From the IMG/VR virus record IMGVR_UViG_3300044591_001861, positions 1-64,000 of that record: a stretch of 64,000 nt of DNA; one strand, 5' to 3'. Position 1 is the stretch's first letter, and every line of letters begins with the position of its first letter. Under the pieces are notes generated by a model. The model was not told the origin of the DNA. It saw nothing but the letters and a program-made list of their open reading frames with translations, and did no database searches. This DNA comes from a virus. Both the position numbers and the translations under genes were made by a program. Positions 16,315 to 40,120 of the stretch are shown piece after piece.

Positions 16315-16470
16315 TGCAATTATTTCAGGCTCGCCACCAATTCTTTGGCTGGAAATTGGAAACCAGGCGGGAGAGAGTCCCATCCGCACCACTTGCTTTT
16401 TAATGGAAAAGCAAGAAACCAAAATGAGGGTCAAATTGACTCCACCACTTAGTTTTAAGAAACTAAGAAA
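16315..16470 (-). ncRNA. Candidate structured cis-regulatory RNA upstream of the glycan operon (possibly wcaG-type)
   Basis: The stretch between a small membrane gene and the terminator has no convincing gene but is dense in hairpins and locally GC-rich. On the minus strand: CTTAGTTT/AAACTAAG (16449-16468), GTCAA/TTGAC (about 16431-16441), CTTGCTTTT/AAAAGCAAG, GGGA/TCCC (loop CTCTC), CTGG/CCAG and CCAATT/AATTGG. The last two overlap and exclude each other. The wcaG RNA motif is known from cyanophages upstream of exopolysaccharide epimerase genes; the position here fits, but I have not matched its consensus. The short open frames on both strands here look accidental. Confidence 0.5.
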
Positions 16471-17233: not shown

Positions 17234-17257
17234 GTAGGACAGTTTCACATCTGCCCA

Positions 17258-17330
17258 TGCTCCTTGCGTGGATCGAACACGCCTCAGGCGAATTATGAGT
17301 TCGCTGCATTCACCAGATTGCTAAAGGAGC
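17258..17330 (-). tRNA. tRNA-Met (anticodon CAT)
   Basis: Cloverleaf on the minus strand: acceptor GCTCCTT/AAGGAGC, anticodon stem GCGAA/TTCGC with loop CTCATAA, T-arm GCGTG-TTCGATC-CACGC. CAT may be Met or lysidine-modified Ile. No CCA is encoded. Confidence 0.88.
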
Positions 17331-17334
17331 AAGT

Positions 17335-17404
17335 AGGACTGCGGGGAATTGAACCCCGTTCACACCGTTATAAGCAGTGGGCCTTAACCAATAGGCGACA
17401 GTCC
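17335..17404 (-). tRNA. tRNA-Ile (anticodon TAT)
   Basis: Acceptor GGACTGT/GCAGTCC, anticodon stem CACTG/CGGTG with loop CTTATAA, T-arm CGGGG-TTCAATT-CCCCG. It reads AUA, a codon favoured by AT-rich phage genes and poorly served in many hosts. Confidence 0.85.
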
Positions 17405-17448
17405 CATGAAGACAGATCAATTATAGGGGACCTGAAACCCTATGACAA

Positions 17449-17652
17449 TTAAGAACCTTCTTCGTGATCGGTGTGAATACGTATTATATCATCGTCTAAA
17501 CCAGCACCTTTGAATATTTGTGACACTTCTTTATATGGCATCATAACTGCATTTCCATATTCACTAGTAATCATAAAAGATTCTCCGTTTTCTACTCTTT
17601 CCATTAGATTATCAAAATCTGATTGAAATTGTTCTACAGTAAATGATTTCAT
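17449..17652 (-). CDS. Phd/YefM-like antitoxin-fold protein
   Basis: A 67-residue protein: MKSFTVEQFQSDFDNLMERV, then VENGESFMITSEYGNAVMM and a C-terminal acidic tail. The order of helix, helix-turn and beta-hairpin (xNGExFxITxxGxxxxxxxP) is that of Phd/YefM antitoxins, DNA-binding repressors that neutralise Doc or YoeB/RelE toxins. No toxin gene lies next to it; both sides are tRNA genes. It could be an orphan antitoxin protecting against a host system, or a simple repressor. Confidence 0.72.
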   Translation of the reverse strand: MKSFTVEQFQSDFDNLMERVENGESFMITSEYGNAVMMPYKEVSQIFKGAGLDDDIIRIHTDHEEGS

Positions 17653-17685
17653 GATTAAATTAAAAAAATTGATATTAAATAAAAG

Positions 17686-17759
17686 TCGGAGTGATAGGAT
17701 TTGAACCTACGACCGCCCGCTCCCAAAGCGGATGCGCTACCAAACTGCGCTACACTCCG
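17686..17759 (-). tRNA. tRNA-Pro (anticodon TGG)
   Basis: Acceptor CGGAGTG/CACTCCG, anticodon stem TCCGC/GCGGG with loop TTTGGGA, T-arm CGTAG-GTTCAAATCC-TA region intact. Its 5' end overlaps the stop of the adjacent 92-codon gene by 10 bases. Confidence 0.92.
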
Positions 17760-18028
17760 TTACTAGAATTTTTAATTATAAGTTCTGGGGAATTTGCATT
17801 TGCTTCCTCAAGCAAAAATTTTTTAACATCATCAAACTTAAAATAAGTTTTTATGATGTCTTTAAACTCTACGTACCAAACAACATCATCATCAGAAGCA
17901 TCTTCCATTTCAGAAGGTGAATCTTTATGCTTAGGAACTGCCTCAATTACCATATGTGTATCAATACCGTGCTTTTCTTCAGCGGCAAGAATAACTTCCA
18001 TGATTGGCAGATCTGCTAGACGAGTCAT
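17750..18028 (-). CDS. Hypothetical acidic protein, 92 residues
   Basis: An acidic soluble protein (MTRLADLPIMEVILAAEEKH, then EMEDASDDDVVWYVEFKD). It has its own promoter 24 bases upstream, and its last codons overlap the 5' end of tRNA-Pro, an economical arrangement. No known family recognised. Confidence 0.62.
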   Translation of the reverse strand: MTRLADLPIMEVILAAEEKHGIDTHMVIEAVPKHKDSPSEMEDASDDDVVWYVEFKDIIKTYFKFDDVKKFLLEEANANSPELIIKNSSNGV

Positions 18029-18051
18029 TTGTTTGCTTTTGGAACTTAATT

Positions 18052-18092
18052 ATTATAAGAGGGGTTCTTGAAAAAGTCAACCCCCCCCCTCT
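18052..18092 (-). promoter_or_regulatory. Nested terminator and sigma70 promoter
   Basis: Minus strand: TTGACT (18075-18080), 17 bases, TATAAT (18052-18057). The same bases form a hairpin: AAGAGGGG with a run of G on one side and AACCCCTCTT on the other, with TTGACTTTTTCAA in the loop. It both follows the gnd stop and starts the next gene. The poly-C run (9 C on the plus strand) is notable. Confidence 0.7.
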
Positions 18093-18115
18093 TATGTGAT
18101 GTTATATTTATTAAC

Positions 18116-19138
18116 CTATCTAACGTGGTGTCCACCAAACATATAACGCATTCCGTTCAAGATTTTTGCTCCGAACGATCCGAGATTGCGTGAGTTAAAT
18201 CTTTCAAATAGTGCAGTAGTAATAACAGGAGCGGGAACCCCCAAGTCCACAGCGGCAGAAACAGTCCAACGACCCTCACCGCTGTCGGATACGCCTCCAG
18301 AGAACTGTTTAAGGCTACCATCCCTGCGTAGCACATCAGCAGTAAGATCGAGTAACCAAGACCCAACCACGCTACCACGACGCCATAGCTCAGCAACCTC
18401 AGCAACGTCAATGTCATAGCAATAGGATTCTGGATCTGCCATCGGGGCAACTTCTGCGTCACCTTCTCTAACATATTGGGCACCTGCGTTAGCATTCTTT
18501 AAAATATTGAAACCTTCGGCATATGCTTGCATAATACCATACTCAATACCATTATGCACCATCTTTACAAAGTGTCCTGCACCTGGACCGCCACAATGTA
18601 ACCAACCATATTCGGCAGAAGTCACATCAGATGTTGGATCCGTTCTATGGCAGGAGTGAATATCTGGGGAGAGGGCGGAGAATATCTTTGAACAAGTGGT
18701 GACTGCAGTATTTCCACCTCCAACCATAAGACAGTATCCACGATCCAAACCATAAACACCACCGCTAGTGCCACAATCAATATATTGGATACCCATTTTT
18801 GCCAGACGTTCTGCTCTCTTCCGACTGTCTTTAAAATTGCTATTGCCATGATCAATAATAATATCTCCTTCACTACAATATCGTAGTAACTCATTGATTG
18901 TCTCCTCTACTGTTTCGGCAGGCACAACCATTTGAAAAATGCCTGGTTGGTCATTTGTTTTAACTGCTTTAACAAGATTTTCAATTGTATCTTCTACACC
19001 AGAAACATATCCTTTTTCAAATGCTTCTTTTGCTTTTTCATAATTTCTACGATAACCCCAGACTTCAATACCTGATTTCATCATACGACGGGACATTCCT
19101 TCTCCCATGCGACCCAATCCAATTAATCCAACTTTCAT
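18116..19138 (-). CDS. gnd: 6-phosphogluconate dehydrogenase, decarboxylating (short form)
   Basis: A 340-residue enzyme of the oxidative pentose phosphate pathway that converts 6-phosphogluconate to ribulose-5-phosphate, CO2 and NADPH. Evidence: VGLIGLGRMGEGMSRRM (NADP loop), VVPAETVEETI, DHGNSNFKDS, CGTSGGVYGLDRGYCLMVGG (substrate site) and HFVKMVHNGIEYGIMQAYAE (catalytic Lys). Cyanophages are known to carry gnd as an auxiliary gene to raise NADPH and ribose for nucleotide synthesis at night or under Calvin-cycle block. It shares a unit with small hypothetical genes upstream. Confidence 0.95.
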   Translation of the reverse strand: MKVGLIGLGRMGEGMSRRMMKSGIEVWGYRRNYEKAKEAFEKGYVSGVEDTIENLVKAVKTNDQPGIFQMVVPAETVEETINELLRYCSEGDIIIDHGNSNFKDSRKRAERLAKMGIQYIDCGTSGGVYGLDRGYCLMVGGGNTAVTTCSKIFSALSPDIHSCHRTDPTSDVTSAEYGWLHCGGPGAGHFVKMVHNGIEYGIMQAYAEGFNILKNANAGAQYVREGDAEVAPMADPESYCYDIDVAEVAELWRRGSVVGSWLLDLTADVLRRDGSLKQFSGGVSDSGEGRWTVSAAVDLGVPAPVITTALFERFNSRNLGSFGAKILNGMRYMFGGHHVR

Positions 19139-19345
19139 TTAATACTCCCAAGATTCGTACTGTTGTCTAAAATAAACATCCACTTTATTCAAACTATCAA
19201 GATGAATATCGCATTTATAATTATGTTCATCACACCACTCTAATGCAAATGCATGAAATCTTTCTTCACTTTTGACTTTGTTTACTCCATAAATTCTAGC
19301 AAAAGAAGACATTACAAAATGCCAACATTGATGCTCTGGTTTCAT
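19139..19345 (-). CDS. Hypothetical protein, 68 residues
   Basis: A small soluble protein rich in His and aromatic residues (MKPEHQCWHFVMSSFARIYG). Its start overlaps the preceding mini-gene as ATGA and its stop abuts gnd, so it is co-translated. Function not recognised. Confidence 0.62.
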   Translation of the reverse strand: MKPEHQCWHFVMSSFARIYGVNKVKSEERFHAFALEWCDEHNYKCDIHLDSLNKVDVYFRQQYESWEY

Positions 19346-19431
19346 TGCGAATAAGCATGGTTAAGTCCCCATACTATAAAATATCCAATAAGACCAAAAA
19401 TGGTTACACTTGATAAGATTAGTTTAATCAT
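19342..19431 (-). CDS. Single-pass membrane mini-protein, 29 residues
   Basis: An ATG-initiated frame of 29 codons (MIKLILSSVTIFGLIGYFIV at the N-terminus), almost entirely one transmembrane helix. It overlaps the gene before by 8 bases and the gene after as ATGA, and GAGGAGG (SD-like) precedes its start. The tight coupling is the main reason to accept it. Confidence 0.55.
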   Translation of the reverse strand: MIKLILSSVTIFGLIGYFIVWGLNHAYSQ

Positions 19432-19540
19432 CCTCCTCGTCCTCGTAAGTTGATGGTTCCTCGAATAGTTCTTCCATTTTTTGTTGCAGAACCCTTTCTT
19501 GCAATCCTTTTAAATCTTCTTCTGTAAATCTAAACACCAT
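19424..19540 (-). CDS. Hypothetical acidic mini-protein, 38 residues
   Basis: Starts MVFRFTEEDLKGLQERVLQQ and ends in a run of Asp/Glu (EDEEDD). A helical, very acidic protein. Its final GAGGACGAGGAGGATG also supplies the ribosome site of the next mini-gene. Function not recognised. Confidence 0.5.
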   Translation of the reverse strand: MVFRFTEEDLKGLQERVLQQKMEELFEEPSTYEDEEDD

Positions 19541-19541
19541 A

Positions 19542-19748
19542 CTAATTTAGAGTAACATTAAGCCATGGAAATATTGGAGGAATTACTCCAATAAGTCTAA
19601 GAAGACCTTCAGCGAAAAGTGCAAGAACAACCCAACCAACACACATTGAAATAATCGCAGCATTACGATTGTGTTTGCGTATTGCATCATCAATCATCTC
19701 TTTGCATTCTTCCTGAGTGATTAGTCTTTCTGGGTTCGATTTGTTCAT
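19542..19748 (-). CDS. Small membrane protein, 68 residues
   Basis: ATG at 19746-19748 (MNKSNPERLITQEECKEM); earlier ATGs in frame exist at 19760 and upstream, so the start is uncertain. A hydrophobic segment AAIISMCVGWVVLALFAEG (about residues 27-47) and a second weak one follow a charged helix. About 59 bases overlap, in another frame, with the 57-codon gene upstream. Confidence 0.55.
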   Translation of the reverse strand: MNKSNPERLITQEECKEMIDDAIRKHNRNAAIISMCVGWVVLALFAEGLLRLIGVIPPIFPWLNVTLN

Positions 19749-19863
19749 TTGGCAATTCATGAATTTTGGCGATACCAATAACGGGAAGCATAACAAGGGA
19801 AAATCCAAGAATTCCCAAACACACTTGATTATTTAATATTTCAACTACCAATTTAGCGATCAT
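19690..19863 (-). CDS. Small membrane protein, 57 residues
   Basis: ATG at 19861-19863 with AGGAGA 8-9 bases upstream. MIAKLVVEILNNQVCLGIL leads into a membrane segment (about 15-34), then a charged tail. Its end overlaps the start of the next gene in a different frame. Accepted because of the good ribosome site. Function unknown. Confidence 0.55.
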   Translation of the reverse strand: MIAKLVVEILNNQVCLGILGFSLVMLPVIGIAKIHELPNEQIEPRKTNHSGRMQRDD

Positions 19864-19880
19864 TATGATGATCTCCTGAC

Positions 19881-20147
19881 TTAATCTTCTGTGGTGAATT
19901 TATTTTCTAAACTATAAAGTCTTTTTTCCCAAGTATCTCCACCTTCTCTTCCTTTGCAAGGATTAATACAGGTAGAATCTCCATGTTTATTGCAAACAAG
20001 ACCTGCAAGATCTAATTCAGATCCATCCTTACTAACTCCTGTTCCTGTCCAAACGTGCTTACCATTTAACCAAACGGCGCCGCACTTTGGACATTCTTTT
20101 CTCTGTAAGGAGAGATCAGAAAGTTCTCTATCGGAATTTGATTGCAT
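19881..20147 (-). CDS. Zinc-ribbon-like hypothetical protein
   Basis: An 88-residue protein with two Cys pairs or clusters: KECPKCGAVW near residue 18 and GLVCNKHGDSTCINPCKG near 49-66, suggesting a zinc-binding fold. AGAGGT lies 5 bases before the ATG. No enzymatic motif visible. Confidence 0.65.
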   Translation of the reverse strand: MQSNSDRELSDLSLQRKECPKCGAVWLNGKHVWTGTGVSKDGSELDLAGLVCNKHGDSTCINPCKGREGGDTWEKRLYSLENKFTTED

Positions 20148-20266
20148 GAGATACCTCTATTTAAACTTTTGCATTTACGCCCAGTATATCTCATCTTCCA
20201 CCAAATATATATTATCAATAACAAATCTCAATATTAGATTGTTATGAGACGATAACATTTTTAAAA

Positions 20267-20350
20267 CGGAAAGGGTGGGATTCGAACCCACGGTGCTCAT
20301 CACACGGCAGTTTTCAAGACTGCTGCCTTAAACCACTCGGCCACCTTTCC
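20267..20350 (-). tRNA. tRNA-Ser (anticodon TGA)
   Basis: Class II tRNA: acceptor GGAAAGG/CCTTTCC, anticodon stem GCAGT/ACTGC with loop CTTGAAA, long variable arm, T-arm GTGGG-TTCGAAT-CCCAC, discriminator G as in Ser tRNAs. Confidence 0.95.
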
Positions 20351-20368
20351 AATATTGGAGGTTGTTTA

Positions 20369-20614
20369 TTAACGAACCTCAAAGTCTAGTTTACGGACTT
20401 TACGTTGTCTTCTTGCCTCTTGCCAGGCAATATCTTGAGAAGTAAGAACATTTCTTTGTTCTTTCTGTGTAGAGTTTACCATAATTACTCTACTTAAGTC
20501 AAGAGCTGAAACACTATCACCCTTTACAGTCATCATATTGTGACAACCACAAACCTGAATTTTATTCGTACTGGTCAACTCTTTGTTACAATCTTTACAT
20601 CTTACTATAATCAT
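20369..20614 (-). CDS. Zinc-finger-like hypothetical protein
   Basis: An 81-residue protein with MIIVRCKDCNKELTSTNKIQ and VCGCHN, i.e. a CxxC ... CxC/H metal-site pattern near the N-terminus, and a basic C-terminal region (QEARRQRKVRKL). Small proteins of this kind occur in cyanophages. Possibly nucleic-acid binding. Confidence 0.62.
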   Translation of the reverse strand: MIIVRCKDCNKELTSTNKIQVCGCHNMMTVKGDSVSALDLSRVIMVNSTQKEQRNVLTSQDIAWQEARRQRKVRKLDFEVR

Positions 20615-20629
20615 GATTCATAAATCCTA

Positions 20630-21064
20630 TCATTGTGTAAACGATCTTAACATCCAAATAAATTTACCGTGCGCTTCATTTAAATCATCAACAAGGTTTA
20701 TAGTTCCTTTTGATTTATTTGACTCTGCTTCATCTGATACTTGAGTCAAAAGTTCTACAATTTTCTGATGACCTTCTAATAGATCACGAATCATTCCCAT
20801 AGTATCTAGCCCACTATTTGTCTCAGTAATATGAGAAACTTCAGTAATTCTAGAAAGAGTTGGAACTGGTTTTACATTCAAAAATCTCATATGTTCAGTG
20901 ATTCGATCTACCTCATCAAACATTGCTTCATATTGTTCGCCAAACAAATCATGAAATTGTTTGAAATCTTCTCCAACTACATTCCAATGATATACCCAAG
21001 TCTTTTGAAAAAGTACAAAAAGACTTGCTTGAGTGTCGGAAAGTAATTTATATAGTGTTTCCAT
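20630..21064 (-). CDS. Dps-like ferritin-fold protein
   Basis: A 144-residue protein of the Dps family. WVYHWNVVGEDFKQFHDLFG and EQYEAMFDEVDRITEHMR contain the His and the Asp/Glu residues of the Dps ferroxidase site between subunits. The last helix HGKFIWMLRSF fits the conserved end. Dps dodecamers oxidise iron, consume peroxide and coat DNA. In a phage of photosynthetic cells it may protect replicating DNA from light-driven oxidative damage or store iron released from photosystems. A late-promoter-like TATAAATA lies 16 bases before the ATG. Confidence 0.82.
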   Translation of the reverse strand: METLYKLLSDTQASLFVLFQKTWVYHWNVVGEDFKQFHDLFGEQYEAMFDEVDRITEHMRFLNVKPVPTLSRITEVSHITETNSGLDTMGMIRDLLEGHQKIVELLTQVSDEAESNKSKGTINLVDDLNEAHGKFIWMLRSFTQ

Positions 21065-21079
21065 TATACTTTTTTCAAG

Positions 21080-21087
21080 TATTTATA
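21080..21087 (-). promoter_or_regulatory. Late-promoter-like TATAAATA before dps
   Basis: A perfect TATAAATA octamer on the minus strand, 16 bases upstream of the Dps start and just 5 bases from the 3' end of tRNA-Val. This is the T4 late promoter sequence read by gp55. Confidence 0.5.
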
Positions 21088-21091
21088 CAAG

Positions 21092-21163
21092 TGGGCGATA
21101 CTGGATTCGAACCAGTGACCATCTCCGTGTAAAGGAGGCACTCTACCGCTGAGTTAATCGCCC
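21092..21163 (-). tRNA. tRNA-Val (anticodon TAC)
   Basis: Acceptor GGGCGAT/ATCGCCC, anticodon loop TTTACAC, T-arm ACTGG-TTCGAAT-CCAGT, discriminator A. Confidence 0.93.
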
Positions 21164-21166
21164 ATG

Positions 21167-21240
21167 CCCTCTGTCTAGGAATCGAACCCAGTTTCCATGT
21201 GTGTTATCCACCCGTCCTTACCAATAGACTACCAGAGGGA
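21167..21240 (-). tRNA. tRNA-like element with abnormal anticodon arm (possible pseudo-tRNA)
   Basis: The ends look like a tRNA: acceptor CCCTCTG/CAGAGGG, D-arm GTC...GAC with TTGGTAA, T-arm CTGGG-TTCGATT-CCTAG. But the middle, GGGTGGATAACACACAT, gives only a GTG/CAC stem and no loop with U at position 33. One extra base also sits at each inner end of the acceptor. No anticodon can be assigned with confidence. It is either degenerate or unusually folded. Confidence 0.55.
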
Positions 21241-21424
21241 AAGGTGATGAGTGGCCATCACCAGCAGAAGACACTTTCTGCGAGAGAAAACACCAAACCT
21301 TATTTTTCCTGTTCTCAGGAAGGCACCCAGATCAATGGGGTGGGAGACCTTGCAAGGGTTTATACCTCCAAAGTTTGTCCAGCATTTTCAATTTGAAAGA
21401 ACCAGACATTTCTAGTCCTTCCAA
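21241..21424 (-). other. Structured spacer between tRNA genes
   Basis: About 180 bases without a gene. On the minus strand they contain hairpins CCTGAGAACAGG, GCAGAA-AGTGTC-TTCTGC and GGTGAT...ATCACC in series. Nothing here matches a tRNA. It could be processed spacer or a small RNA. Confidence 0.4.
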
Positions 21425-21496
21425 CTCCACAACCTGGATTCGAACCAGGGACCAAGTGATTAACAGTCACCGACTCTACCGCTGAGCTATTGTGGA
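21425..21496 (-). tRNA. tRNA-Asn (anticodon GTT)
   Basis: Acceptor TCCACAA/TTGTGGA, anticodon stem GGTGA/TCACT with loop CTGTTAA, T-arm CCTGG-TTCGAAT-CCAGG, discriminator G. Confidence 0.95.
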
Positions 21497-21504
21497 ATGT
21501 TATA

Positions 21505-21708
21505 CTACTTAGAACTTACAAAATCATTAATCGTTTCTGCTTGCTTAAGAACATCCCGTAGAGTTGGAAACTCTGGATAATCCATCTTCACAGTATTTGA
21601 AGAATTTGCATTCCAATAACGAGCAGTATCCGTTTCAATACTGAACTGATCATTTAGCATATTATATGCTTGCTTGAATATTTCAAAACGAAGTTCGTAA
21701 GGTGACAT
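21505..21708 (-). CDS. Hypothetical protein, 67 residues
   Basis: A small helical soluble protein (MSPYELRFEIFKQAYNMLND), placed between tRNA-Gly and tRNA-Asn. I recall similar short proteins in cyanophage tRNA regions. Function not recognised. Confidence 0.65.
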   Translation of the reverse strand: MSPYELRFEIFKQAYNMLNDQFSIETDTARYWNANSSNTVKMDYPEFPTLRDVLKQAETINDFVSSK

Positions 21709-21753
21709 TTATTTACTCCTGTGTGTTTGTGTGTATGGAGATTAGTCTCCAAG

Positions 21754-21825
21754 AGCGGAATAGGGGATTCGAACCCCTGACGTTCAGCTTGGAAGGCTGA
21801 CATTCTACCGCTGAATTAATTCCGC
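21754..21825 (-). tRNA. tRNA-Gly (anticodon TCC)
   Basis: Acceptor GCGGAAT/ATTCCGC, anticodon stem TCAGC/GCTGA with loop CTTCCAA, T-arm AGGGG-TTCGAAT-CCCCT. Confidence 0.95.
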
Positions 21826-21910
21826 ATAGTCCTCTTGATTTGTGCTTCTATGAGAGGCATAAGAGGAGTAGGACTTACATGAAGTTTGGACCTTCACTGC
21901 CAATGATAAT

Positions 21911-21939
21911 ATTGTAACCTATGATTGATCCCTTGTCAA
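21911..21939 (-). promoter_or_regulatory. Sigma70 promoter upstream of tRNA-Gly
   Basis: Minus strand: TTGACA (21934-21939), 17 bases, TACAAT (21911-21916). It overlaps the stop of the HNH gene and would drive the lower tRNA group. Confidence 0.7.
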
Positions 21940-22415
21940 GCCCCTTCACCAAATATAAATTCTTTCCATTCATGAACTCTACTTTTTTCAAGATCTAACA
22001 TTACGCGACTAAAAGGTGCTTTTGGTTCACACTTTAGTTTCATATTAGTATCTTTTAAAGACTTATTGCCCTTTTTAACATTACATGTCATACAACATGC
22101 AACTAAGTTATCCCAGGTATCCTTTCCGCCTTTTGATCTTGGAATCACATGGTCTATTGTAAGATCATTTTTTGTTCCACAATACTGACATTCATGATCA
22201 TCTCTTTTATATATCAAGGCACGAGATGGATAAGTTTCCTTTTCGTTCATGAAAGGAAGTTTTACATAATTTACTAATTTAATTATTCTTTTTGAAATAA
22301 TTTTTGCCTTTTCTTTAAAACAAAGAACTACGGCTCTTTTCCAATTTGTAAAGTGAAGAGGTTCATATGAACTATTGAGAACCAATATTGTTGAATAAGG
22401 TTCTATGTATTCCAT
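21936..22415 (-). CDS. HNH endonuclease
   Basis: A 159-residue free-standing HNH nuclease with zinc-binding Cys pairs: CQYCGTKNDLTIDHVIPRSK (DH is the metal/catalytic pair) and NLVACCMTCNVKKGNKS. The N-terminal part (TILVLNSSYEPLHFTNWKRA) matches the cyanobacterial and phage HNH type. The start is the ATG at 22413-22415, six bases after AGGTG; a GTG three codons earlier is less likely. It sits among tRNA genes, a common target region for mobile homing nucleases. Confidence 0.88.
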   Translation of the reverse strand: MEYIEPYSTILVLNSSYEPLHFTNWKRAVVLCFKEKAKIISKRIIKLVNYVKLPFMNEKETYPSRALIYKRDDHECQYCGTKNDLTIDHVIPRSKGGKDTWDNLVACCMTCNVKKGNKSLKDTNMKLKCEPKAPFSRVMLDLEKSRVHEWKEFIFGEGA

Positions 22416-22455
22416 ACTAAACACCTATACATTTGTTATTTAGATTTTAATTATA

Positions 22456-22527
22456 CACCCTGAGGAGGATTTGAACCACCGTCTTATTCGTTCGTAGCGA
22501 AGCACTCTTCCACTGAGTTATCAGGGC
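22456..22527 (-). tRNA. tRNA-Arg (anticodon ACG)
   Basis: Acceptor GCCCTGA/TCAGGGT, anticodon stem CTTCG/CGAAT with loop CTACGAA, T-loop TTCAAAT. A34 is normal for bacterial Arg-ACG, which is edited to inosine. Confidence 0.88.
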
Positions 22528-22532
22528 GTAGG

Positions 22533-22604
22533 CGAAGGATGAGGGACTTGAACCCCCACTAGCGGTTTTGGAGACCACCGTGCTACCAATTACACCAATC
22601 CAAC
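22533..22604 (-). tRNA. tRNA-Trp (anticodon CCA)
   Basis: Anticodon stem GTGGT/ACCGC with loop CTCCAAA, D-arm GTG/CAC, T-arm GGGGG-TTCAAGT-CCCTC. The acceptor GTTGGAT/ATCCTTC has two T-T mismatches at positions 2 and 3, so aminoacylation may be impaired. Confidence 0.78.
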
Positions 22605-22608
22605 ATAG

Positions 22609-22682
22609 TATCCATGAGAGGACTCGAACCTCCAACAAATAAATCCTTAGTCTATTGCCTCTTCCAATTGGGCTACATGGAT
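22609..22682 (-). tRNA. tRNA with apparent anticodon AAG (Leu-type codon, class I body)
   Basis: Acceptor ATCCATG/CATGGAT, D-arm GCC/GGC, anticodon stem ATAGA/TTTAT with loop CTAAGGA, T-arm GGAGG-TTCGAGT-CCTCT, variable loop TTGTT. The anticodon AAG would read CUU (Leu), but Leu tRNAs have a long variable arm and this one is only 5 bases. Identity is uncertain. Confidence 0.65.
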
Positions 22683-22685
22683 ATA

Positions 22686-22756
22686 CTGGGTGACTAGGAC
22701 TCGAACCTAGATAAACGCCTTCAAAGGGCGGTGTCCTACCATTAGACGATCTCCCA
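22686..22756 (-). tRNA. tRNA-Gln (anticodon TTG)
   Basis: Acceptor TGGGAGA/TCACCCA with one A-A mismatch, anticodon loop CTTTGAA, T-arm CTAGG-TTCGAGT-CCTAG, discriminator G. Confidence 0.92.
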
Positions 22757-22828
22757 AGCCCTCAATTGGATTTGAACCAACGACCTACTCATTACTAGTG
22801 AGTTGCTCTACCACTGAGCTATAAGGGC
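22757..22828 (-). tRNA. tRNA-Thr (anticodon AGT)
   Basis: Acceptor GCCCTTA/TGAGGGC, anticodon stem ACTCA/TGAGT with loop CTAGTAA, T-arm GTTGG-TTCAAAT-CCAAT. A34 is unusual for bacterial Thr tRNA. Confidence 0.88.
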
Positions 22829-22830
22829 GG

Positions 22831-22901
22831 GGTGCCGTATGGGAATTGAACCCATCTAGTCGGTTCCACAAACCGATGCCTTACCACTAGGCTAACGACA
22901 C
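22831..22901 (-). tRNA. tRNA-His (anticodon GTG)
   Basis: Acceptor GTGTCGT/ACGGCAC, anticodon stem TCGGT/ACCGA with loop TTGTGGA, T-arm ATGGG-TTCAATT-CCCAT. Confidence 0.93.
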
Positions 22902-22902
22902 A

Positions 22903-22974
22903 AGGCAGTGGGTAGAATTGAACTACCGACATAGAGGGTATGAATCTCTTGTTCTACCACTGAACTACACTGCC
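22903..22974 (-). tRNA. tRNA-Met (anticodon CAT), second copy
   Basis: Acceptor GGCAGTG/CACTGCC, anticodon stem AGAGA/CCTCT with loop TTCATAC, T-arm GGTAG-TTCAATT-CTACC. Distinct from the CAT tRNA at 17.3 kb, so one of the two may be lysidine-Ile. Confidence 0.9.
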
Positions 22975-22977
22975 AAA

Positions 22978-23064
22978 CGGAAGATGTTGGATTCGAACCA
23001 ACGGAAGGATTACTCCTTCGACGGTTTAGCAAACCGTTGCTTTAGACCTCTCAGCCAATCTTCC
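22978..23064 (-). tRNA. tRNA-Ser (anticodon GCT)
   Basis: Class II: acceptor GGAAGAT/ATCTTCC, anticodon stem ACGGT/ACCGT with loop TTGCTAA, long variable arm, T-arm GTTGG-TTCGAAT-CCAAC, discriminator G. Confidence 0.95.
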
Positions 23065-23068
23065 AAGG

Positions 23069-23140
23069 TGGAACCGACAAGATTTGAACTTGTGACCGCT
23101 CGGTTATCAGCCGAGTGCTCTACCGCTGAGCTACGGTTCC
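23069..23140 (-). tRNA. tRNA-Ile (anticodon GAT)
   Basis: Acceptor GGAACCG/CGGTTCC, anticodon stem CTCGG/CCGAG with loop CTGATAA, T-arm ACAAG-TTCAAAT-CTTGT, discriminator A. Confidence 0.95.
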
Positions 23141-23145
23141 AAAGT

Positions 23146-23215
23146 ATTCCTAACGGGATTCGAACCCGTGCTGCCACCTTGAAAGGGTGGTGACCTAACC
23201 GCTAGTCGATAGGAA
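23146..23215 (-). tRNA. tRNA-Glu (anticodon TTC)
   Basis: Acceptor TTCCTAT/TTAGGAA, anticodon stem CCACC/GGTGG with loop CTTTCAA, T-arm ACGGG-TTCGAAT-CCCGT. Confidence 0.92.
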
Positions 23216-23217
23216 CT

Positions 23218-23264
23218 TGATGCTACAACCGCCAAGGAGGAACACTCCACAGGCAGCGTAGCAA
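23218..23264 (-). other. Hairpin spacer between tRNA-Asp and tRNA-Glu
   Basis: An imperfect inverted repeat closes with TGCTAC/GTAGCA and contains GGC/GCC. No tRNA arms remain. Possibly a processing signal or remnant. Confidence 0.4.
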
Positions 23265-23336
23265 CGACCCTAACGAGATTTGAACTCGTGATACCACCGT
23301 GACAGGGTGGCGTGATAACCGCTTCACTATAGGGTC
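23265..23336 (-). tRNA. tRNA-Asp (anticodon GTC)
   Basis: Acceptor GACCCTA/TAGGGTC, anticodon stem CCACC/GGTGG with loop CTGTCAC, T-arm ACGAG-TTCAAAT-CTCGT, discriminator G. Confidence 0.95.
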
Positions 23337-23340
23337 AAGG

Positions 23341-23422
23341 TGGGAGGAACAGGATTTGAACCTGTGAAGGCAGAGCCGTCTGATTTACAGTCAGATTCCT
23401 TTAACCACTCGGAAATCCTCCC
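23341..23422 (-). tRNA. tRNA-Tyr (anticodon GTA)
   Basis: Class II: acceptor GGGAGGA/TCCTCCC, anticodon stem TCTGA/TCAGA with loop CTGTAAA, long variable arm, T-arm ACAGG-TTCAAAT-CCTGT, discriminator A. Confidence 0.95.
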
Positions 23423-23426
23423 ACGA

Positions 23427-23499
23427 TGGGTCTGGTCGGACTCGAACCGACGACTTACAGGTTAAAAGCCCGCTACTCTACCAACTGAGTTACAGACCC
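23427..23499 (-). tRNA. tRNA-Lys (anticodon TTT)
   Basis: Acceptor GGGTCTG/CAGACCC, anticodon stem GCGGG/CCTGT with loop CTTTTAA, T-arm GTCGG-TTCGAGT-CCGAC. Confidence 0.93.
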
Positions 23500-23621
23500 A
23501 AATAATATAGGATAAATATTCAGTTGTCTAGGTTCTGGTCTCTTGACCACTTGATTACAATACCACCGTTTGATCTCTGGGGGGGAGGTTGGTGGACGCT
23601 TAGGAAACTGTCACAGACAAC
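23500..23621. other. Intergenic stretch with no recognised feature
   Basis: About 120 bases between tRNA-Lys and the terminator. On the minus strand a TATATTAT could be part of a promoter for the tRNA group, but no good -35 is placed. A purine-rich GGGGGGGAGG run lies near 23580. Confidence 0.4.
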
Positions 23622-23656
23622 AAAAAAGGGGAGAGAAACTAAAAGTTTCCTCCCCT
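23622..23656 (-). terminator. Strong terminator inside the tRNA array
   Basis: Minus strand: AGGGGAGGAAACT / AGTTTCTCTCCCCT stem with a short T loop, followed by TTTTTTGTTG. It ends the 190-base unit starting at the late promoter at 23803. Confidence 0.88.
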
Positions 23657-23682
23657 GTCTTTTTGCTTTTATGGATTACATC

Positions 23683-23781
23683 TTACATATGTTTTTCCAT
23701 ATTCGCAAACAGGGGAGTGCCCTCAATATGCCAATAGCGGCAATCAAGAGTACTAATCTGTTTGTTCATTTGGAAAGACAT
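23683..23781 (-). CDS. Possible mini-gene of 32 residues
   Basis: ATG frame MSFQMNKQISTLDCRYWHIE and 12 more residues. No clear SD. It is exactly enclosed by TATAAATA (23803-23810) and the terminator at 23622-23656, so this unit is transcribed for either this peptide or a short RNA. Confidence 0.4.
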   Translation of the reverse strand: MSFQMNKQISTLDCRYWHIEGTPLFANMEKHM

Positions 23782-23802
23782 TGTTTTCGACCTAAGTATG
23801 TT

Positions 23803-23810
23803 TATTTATA
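23803..23810 (-). promoter_or_regulatory. Late-promoter-like TATAAATA inside the tRNA array
   Basis: A perfect TATAAATA octamer on the minus strand, 22 bases upstream of the mini-gene ATG. Confidence 0.5.
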
Positions 23811-23832
23811 AGACTTTTCAATAAAAAGTCAA

Positions 23833-23906
23833 CGACTCAAGTAGGACTCGAACCTACGACCGACTGCTTAGAAGGCAGTTGCTCTATCCATCTGAGCTAT
23901 TGAGTC
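23833..23906 (-). tRNA. tRNA-Arg (anticodon TCT)
   Basis: Acceptor GACTCAA/TTGAGTC, anticodon stem ACTGC/GCAGT with loop CTTCTAA, T-arm GTAGG-TTCGAGT-CCTAC. Confidence 0.95.
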
Positions 23907-23914
23907 ATGAGACA

Positions 23915-23943
23915 ATTTTATCCGATATGAATTCAATTGTCAA
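23915..23943 (-). promoter_or_regulatory. Sigma70 promoter upstream of tRNA-Arg(TCT), with inverted repeat
   Basis: Minus strand: TTGACA (23938-23943), 17 bases, TAAAAT (23915-23920). GACAATT at the -35 and AATTGTC at the -10 are perfect inverted copies enclosing the spacer. Confidence 0.7.
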
Positions 23944-23945
23944 GT

Positions 23946-24026
23946 AGGACGAGAGGGACTTGAACCCTCACAGGCAATGCCCGACAGATTTTAAGTCTGG
24001 TGTGTCTACCAATTCCACCACCGTCC
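23946..24026 (-). tRNA. tRNA-Leu (anticodon TAA)
   Basis: Class II: acceptor GGACGGT/CTCGTCC, anticodon stem CAGA/TCTG with loop CTTAAAA, variable arm CGGGCATTGCCTG, T-arm GAGGG-TTCAAGT-CCCTC. Confidence 0.93.
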
Positions 24027-24053
24027 CGCAAAATATACCTCTTAGAGAGGTAA

Positions 24054-24146
24054 TAGGAGTGGAGGGACTCGAACCCCCAACCGCACGGTAATCTGCCGTA
24101 TACGGAAGGTATAAGCTTCCCGCTCTGCCAATTGAGCTACACTCCC
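24054..24146 (-). tRNA. tRNA with anticodon TAT and an abnormally long variable region
   Basis: Acceptor GGGAGTG/CACTCCT, class I D-arm (GCTCAATTGGCAGAGC), anticodon stem GGAAG/CTTCC with loop CTTATAC, T-arm GGGGG-TTCGAGT-CCCTC. Between anticodon and T-arms lie 25 bases with an internal hairpin ACGG-CAGATTA-CCGT. Ile tRNAs normally have 5 bases here. The anticodon TAT reads AUA; identity uncertain. Confidence 0.8.
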
Positions 24147-40086: not shown

Positions 40087-40120
40087 AAAACTAAAAGGTT
40101 ACGCTTTTAGATATTTAGAA

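Follow-up and report, generated by a model that had tools for sequence, protein, structure and literature searches.

The window analysed here is the whole 64,000 nt stretch (positions 1 to 64,000) of the IMG/VR virus record IMGVR_UViG_3300044591_001861. ARAGORN finds 25 tRNAs in the window: 23 at 17257-24027, one at 40120, and one at 24054-24146, which is the gene considered in this work (Table 1). The tRNA array is cyanophage-like, and the records similar to the region are mostly from Synechococcus phages. A previous reading made from the sequence only had placed a tRNA with a TAT anticodon at 24054-24146, and ARAGORN, which that reading named as a check, calls a tRNA-Ile (tat) of exactly that span on the minus strand. 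The Rfam tRNA model scores the same span at 55.7 bits, for a gathering score of 29. The cloverleaf has an acceptor stem of 7 bp, a D arm of 4 bp and a T arm of 5 bp, and 25 nt, GTATACGGCAGATTACCGTGCGGTT, separate the anticodon stem from the T stem. The insert with an ACGG/CCGT hairpin that had been described between the anticodon and T arms is thus there in the letters; a T.G wobble adds one pair to its stem, giving TACGG/CCGTG with CAGATTA as the 7-nt loop. The other AUA-reading tRNA that the same reading had reported near 17335 is also real, and it is class I. Elsewhere in the window, Rfam identifies a wcaG cis-regulatory RNA (16323-16423, minus strand, 100.7 bits), and a tRNA-Val (aac) (21166-21238, minus strand) has a very weak Rfam score of 30.1 bits and is perhaps decaying.

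Table 1. Parts of the tRNA-Ile(UAU) gene and two ordinary isoleucine tRNAs of the window used for comparison.
Feature	Positions	Strand	Basis	Remarks
Whole tRNA-Ile(UAU) gene	24054..24146	-	ARAGORN, Rfam, letters	93 nt; 3' CCA not encoded
Acceptor stem, 5' strand, GGGAGTG	24140..24146	-	letters; covariation	
D arm, GCTC-AATTGGCA-GAGC	24122..24137	-	letters	U12-A23 present
First anticodon arm, GGAAG-CTTATAC-CTTCC	24104..24120	-	ARAGORN, letters	anticodon UAU at 24113-24111; C38
Second anticodon-like arm, TACGG-CAGATTA-CCGTG	24084..24100	-		GAU at 24093-24091; the hairpin of the sequence-only reading
Class I variable loop, CGGTT	24079..24083	-	letters	5 nt; CGGTC in the tRNA-Ile(GAU) of the same array
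T arm, GGGGG-TTCGAGT-CCCTC	24062..24078	-	letters	
Acceptor stem, 3' strand, CACTCCT, and discriminator A73	24054..24061	-	letters	
Ordinary tRNA-Ile(GAU), arm CTCGG-CTGATAA-CCGAG-CGGTC	23067..23140	-	ARAGORN	comparison
Ordinary class I tRNA-Ile(UAU), loop CTTATAA	17333..17405	-	ARAGORN	no second arm

The single-sequence fold of this tRNA is not unusual (z-score of -1.73, with 11 of 200 shuffles folding equally well), and its minimum free energy fold differs from the cloverleaf. We take the hairpin as real because of the comparative evidence. In an alignment of 33 diverse relatives, most of them selected by the loop of the hairpin and not by its stem, 97.3% of the cells of the cloverleaf plus hairpin are paired, and 235 cells have changes on both sides of a pair, compared to 54.5 in shuffled alignments. 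The covariation score for the whole structure is 0.844 versus 0.223 in the shuffles, none of which reaches it (0/500), and shifting the structure by one to three columns results in a far lower score. Within the hairpin, 100% of the cells of the three inner pairs are paired, each pair with changes on both sides, and 86% of those of the fourth. This covariation rules out a chance hairpin: the hairpin is real and RNA-level selection acts on it.

Absence of the insert from other phages had been named by the sequence-only reading as evidence against it, and many phages have the insert, which also rejects a window-specific artefact. Using blastn, we find the same gene, insert included, in the Synechococcus phages DSL-LC02 and SynMITS9220M01, where the stem is GCAC/GTGC in place of ACGG/CCGT and the loop CAGATTA is identical; a homologue in Acinetobacter phage vB_AbaS_qsb1 has the stem CGA/TCG and the loop CAGATAA. 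A pattern that combines the UAU loop with CAGATWA and the T loop occurs in at least 120 viral stretches and in 89 genome stretches. At least 117 of the viral but 42 of the 89 genome stretches also have a hairpin, T stem and anticodon stem, and the genome matches that fail this check mostly look like chance. Other members are found in Vibrio phages Thalassa, Achelous and henriette 12B8, and in Lactobacillus phages LpeD and Lpa804. In total, the layout is common to hundreds of phage loci (Synechococcus, Vibrio, Lactobacillus and Acinetobacter phages), and judging from titles and hosts the carriers, phages and genomes together, span Cyanobacteria, Proteobacteria, Bacillota and Acidobacteriota. 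We refer to the members as double-arm tRNAs. The eight bacterial genomes that we looked at have a single copy each. In three bacterial families the gene is present in 4/149, 6/100 and 2/78 genomes, the others having no match, a sporadic distribution that rejects a conserved core gene of these families and indicates that the gene is probably mobile. A partner gene beside the tRNA was also rejected: when open reading frames within 3.5 kb are clustered, the largest cluster covers 18 loci and has mixed functions. Among individual neighborhoods, phage DSL-LC02 (locus L003, 2662-2993) has two small genes with antitoxin and AbrB/MazE-type annotations directly upstream of the tRNA, and a Stenotrophomonas locus (L172, 1932-5912) has near the tRNA a KfrA gene and an OLD-like TOPRIM ATPase adjoining a UvrD-like helicase, a pair that we take to be Gabija-like.

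The sequence-only reading had described a class I body with a class II-like variable arm. The class I body with an extra hairpin is confirmed, and the class II character of the arm is not, because of the spacing to the T stem and the GAU in the loop. In 133 of the 134 distinct sequences, 9-10 nt separate the end of the hairpin loop from the T stem, that is, about 5 nt after a stem of 4-5 bp, which matches the spacing that follows an ordinary anticodon loop. The variable stems of Leu, Ser and Tyr tRNAs from the same loci, in contrast, mostly end 1-3 nt ahead of the T stem, and on this geometry we reject a class II variable arm. The second loop has 7 nt with GAU at positions 34-36, as in C-A-GAU-(U/A)-A, and the loop of tRNA-Ile(GAU) is CUGAUAA. 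For the window tRNA, 16 of 22 positions of the second arm plus variable loop agree by eye with the array's own tRNA-Ile(GAU). When positions 34-36 are masked and 22 isotype profiles are compared, Ile-GAU scores best for 23 of 53 distinct second arms, compared to 13 of 23 true Ile-GAU arms and 17 of 583 non-Ile arms; with profiles of the stem only, Ile-GAU is barely ahead of Met (15 versus 13 of the 53). The Ile-GAU background was cleaned by removing six mis-called double-arm members and four further Ile-GAU calls without U33. ARAGORN itself labels some Xanthomonadaceae-type copies (L200, L205, L162, L167, L179 and L184) as tRNA-Ile(gat) because it takes the second arm as the anticodon arm. The suggestion that the insert bears on synthetase identity seems well placed. 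Given the GAU loop and the anticodon-arm spacing, the hairpin probably supplies isoleucine identity rather than shifting identity towards a class II synthetase.

The two arms are strictly coupled. A search leaving the variable region unconstrained, with a pattern consisting of the D arm and the UAU loop only, produced 276 distinct hits, of which 247 could be parsed: 30 are class I, 3 are intermediate, and 214 have a long variable region. The second-loop triplet of these 214 is GAU in 209 cases, GAC (a valine anticodon) in four (L313, L320, L364 and L455), and AGT in one (L429) that we judge to be a misparse. The register choice behind the 209/214 favoured GAT; without it, GAT is found in 224 of 229 members of a larger and mostly motif-selected set, and of the five that remain, two look like false parses and one is a register slip. 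A fifth GAC case occurs in Lactobacillus phage 3-521 (L343, 1501-1591). The exceptional second loops CGGACGG, GCGACGG and TGGATTG keep GAY but not A33; blastn with the TGGATTG variant found no match. In the opposite direction, leaving the anticodon unconstrained and fixing the loop CAGATWA, the first arm is UAU in all 140 occurrences, and also in all 56 distinct sequences obtained with another D arm.

Bacterial isoleucine determinants, as given in PMC9976931, include A73, C4-G69, the pair 12-23 (U12-A23 in its Table 1, U12-G23 in its section 11), C29-G41, G/C34, A35, U36, A38 and t6A37, the last a strong determinant for bacterial isoleucyl-tRNA synthetase (IleRS). Of the 134 distinct sequences retrieved without fixing the D arm, 118 have C29-G41 in the second arm and 37 have it in the UAU arm; taking one sequence per similarity cluster, the numbers are 32/38 versus 6/38. 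The background in the same loci is 13/29 for clean Ile-GAU tRNAs and 122/1063 for other class I tRNAs. C4-G69 occurs in 74/134 double-arm tRNAs, 369/1063 other class I tRNAs of the same loci, and 11/29 clean Ile-GAU tRNAs. U12-A23 is present in 99 of 112 double-arm tRNAs, counted only on sufficiently long free-D-arm hits as the D-arm pattern of the search with unconstrained variable region fixes U12. A73 is found in 159/164, an encoded CCA in 134/164, and an acceptor stem with all 7 pairs in 152/164 parsed double-arm tRNAs. A38 is kept in only 8% of 209 UAU arms, compared to 78% in other class I tRNAs, and is present in 208 of 229 second loops. Position 33 of the second loop is A in 223, G in 3 and U in 3 of the 229, and at position 37 there are 143 U and 73 A, so that most second loops cannot carry t6A there; A37 is present in the UAU loop. 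The set of G34 or lysidine-34, A35 and U36 that IleRS looks for is complete only if the second arm counts, as the first has U34. The window copy has U12-A23, A73 and, in the second arm, C29-G41 together with A33 and A38; C4-G69 is missing. Most elements preferred by IleRS are therefore located in the second arm, and the U33 required by the ribosome in the first, a residue needed for the U-turn.

The anatomy, its covariation, the GAU triplet, the coupling to UAU and the placing of the identity elements are the observations behind the following model, in which two anticodon arms of the tRNA would stand in tandem, preceded by the D arm and followed by the variable loop. Of these, the first (UAU) would read the isoleucine codon AUA. 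The second arm (GAU, with loops CAGAUUA, CAGAUAA or UAGAUNR) would reproduce the one found in the common tRNA-Ile(GAU) and be recognised by IleRS, so that the tRNA is charged with isoleucine without lysidine, and A33 in place of U33 should keep the second loop off the ribosome. The arms may exchange places below the D stem, or they may lie side by side. IleRS charges a plain UAU anticodon poorly. GAU cannot read AUA, and bacterial IleRS as characterised wants G34 or lysidine-34; a tRNA that presents GAU to the enzyme and UAU to the ribosome would thus solve both problems. We hold this reading, with AUA decoded by the UAU arm and IleRS presented with the GAU arm, with slightly better than even confidence; charging by IleRS, use on AUA codons, and the absence of decoding by the second arm are the parts of it that we infer. 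Several facts weigh against it. Most second loops have U37 and hence no t6A, the 30 class I tRNAs among the 247 phage UAU tRNAs seem to do without a second arm, and there are five cases with the valine triplet GAC. The missing C4-G69 of the window copy, the weak preference of the stem-only profiles and the redundancy of AUA decoding described below count against it as well. In addition, a review (PMC7609411) reports that allo-tRNA-UAU, which is probably the same group, was unusable in E. coli translation, and that the synthetases of this host did not charge related odd tRNAs. Unmodified transcripts or a foreign IleRS could explain the E. coli failure of allo-tRNA-UAU.

In comparisons to related phages, AUA codons of the window align with I in 55%, V in 18% and L in 7% of cases (n=284), and AUU codons with I in 62%, V in 13% and L in 9% (n=1060). 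AUA aligns with isoleucine about as AUU does, and therefore AUA means isoleucine in the window. The alignment is no proof of isoleucine on the double-arm tRNA, because the window has a class I UAU tRNA as well. Similarly, TilS is present in 8/8 bacterial carriers searched, so that the double-arm tRNA is not their sole AUA decoder; with TilS in the carriers and the class I UAU tRNA in the window phage, AUA decoding is redundant. Of 247 other phage loci, only 2 have such a second UAU reader within the stretches covered. In Vibrio phage Thalassa (L340, 1413-1488), a tRNA-Ile(GAU) adjoining the double-arm tRNA has the loop CCGATAA, with C33 for U33.

The GAU loop may instead have nothing to do with charging. 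Anticodon nucleases can target tRNA-Ile(GAU), and the loop could act as a decoy that mimics this tRNA and occupies or misleads a host factor such as a nuclease. The distribution of the gene, mostly in phages, sporadic in bacterial genomes and near defence-like genes in one of them, would fit a decoy, and A33 and the many cases of U37 are unexpected in an IleRS substrate; but the strict coupling to UAU, the full tRNA body with its A73 and CCA, and C29-G41 are left unexplained, and we consider a decoy unlikely. The loop could also be an AGAUN pentaloop that binds some widely conserved protein or RNA, without any mimicry of an anticodon, given that the closing positions around AGAU vary (C.A, U.G and U-A). 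This we find a little less plausible still, since it is GAY and not A33 that the exceptional loops keep, the canonical spacing and the Ile-like stem would have to be a coincidence, and the loci share no neighbor gene within 3.5 kb.

Both arms are intact, and the spacing suits a swap from the 3' side, so one may ask whether they are interchangeable, with UAU reading AUA and GAU reading AUU/AUC. The near absence of U33 from the second loop makes such dual decoding improbable, as does the ordinary Ile-GAU tRNA found nearby in 90 of 247 phage loci. We give very little credence to a class II-like arm that steers the tRNA to LeuRS or SerRS so that AUA is misread, as proposed for the nematode nev-tRNA-Ile(UAU): A73 and a large variable region are leucine determinants in PMC9976931, yet the geometry is unlike that of the class II tRNAs of the same loci, and AUA aligns with leucine no more than AUU does. 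A decaying or selfish tRNA-like gene with no role in translation is just as hard to credit. Stem defects and a link to transposons are reported for allo-tRNA-UAU in PMC7609411, but here acceptor stems are mostly complete and covariation is strong.

We next compare double-arm tRNAs to systems already described. Allo-tRNA-UAU (Mukai et al. 2017, as presented in the review PMC7609411) has a UAU anticodon, an extra stem and a possible five-stem junction, is abundant in environmental DNA, and is present in Acidobacteria; Terriglobia genomes contain double-arm members. The UAU anticodon and extra stem are common to both, on a comparison by description only. The section of that review on allo-tRNA-UAU mentions neither phages nor a second anticodon, and it puts the extra stem between the acceptor and the D arm. 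The 8/4 acceptor/T split of allo-tRNA-UAU is also different from the 7/5 of double-arm tRNAs, as read by parsers that assumed 7/5 (T stem with 5 of 5 pairs in 161/166). The nematode nev-tRNA-Ile(UAU) (PMC4300185) is similar in combining UAU with an added arm in the variable region; that arm is of a Leu-like kind, and in vitro the tRNA accepts leucine, whereas double-arm tRNAs have anticodon-arm spacing, a GAU loop and isoleucine elements. The nev-tRNAs belong to nematode genomes, and double-arm tRNAs to phages and bacteria, with a geometry that is not of the Leu type. The tRNA-Ile2 with lysidine (TilS pathway) answers the same problem of reading AUA with isoleucine identity by modifying C34, whereas a double-arm tRNA has its UAU encoded and bears a second arm. 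Class I tRNA-Ile(UAU), found in some bacteria and phages and once in the window, has the same decoding anticodon but no second arm, and usually has A38 (21/30).

A literature search, with most subscription papers outside its reach and so not a proof, found no paper naming two anticodon arms in such a tRNA; the direct parallels it found are the allo-tRNA review and the nematode nev-tRNA paper. As far as could be seen, the sequence group is partly known and the two-arm reading is new. To our knowledge, no tRNA has been described in which codon reading and, for synthetases that inspect the anticodon loop, identity are served by different anticodon loops. If the two-arm reading is true, decoding and identity would be separable by means of a separate identity anticodon. 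It would explain the five-stem allo-tRNA-UAU group, show how phages can cope with the difficult codon AUA in a new way that needs no lysidine, and provide a design rule for orthogonal tRNAs. The general proposal of a tRNA class that splits decoding (UAU for the ribosome) from identity (GAU for IleRS), spread by phages across several phyla as a lysidine-free solution for AUA, with a rare GAC variant presenting valine identity and perhaps inserting Val at AUA, seems to us evenly balanced between right and wrong.

Finally, the phage and bacterial loci also include class II-type bodies with non-class-II anticodons, for instance an Asn GUU tRNA with a Ser-like variable arm. We observe them for Asn (gtt; L301, L112, L124, L034), Trp (L223, L229), Pro (L295, L332, L030), Gly (L316, L030), Thr (L125, L338) and Lys (L175, L099). 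They are possibly misreading tRNAs or allo-type tRNAs.
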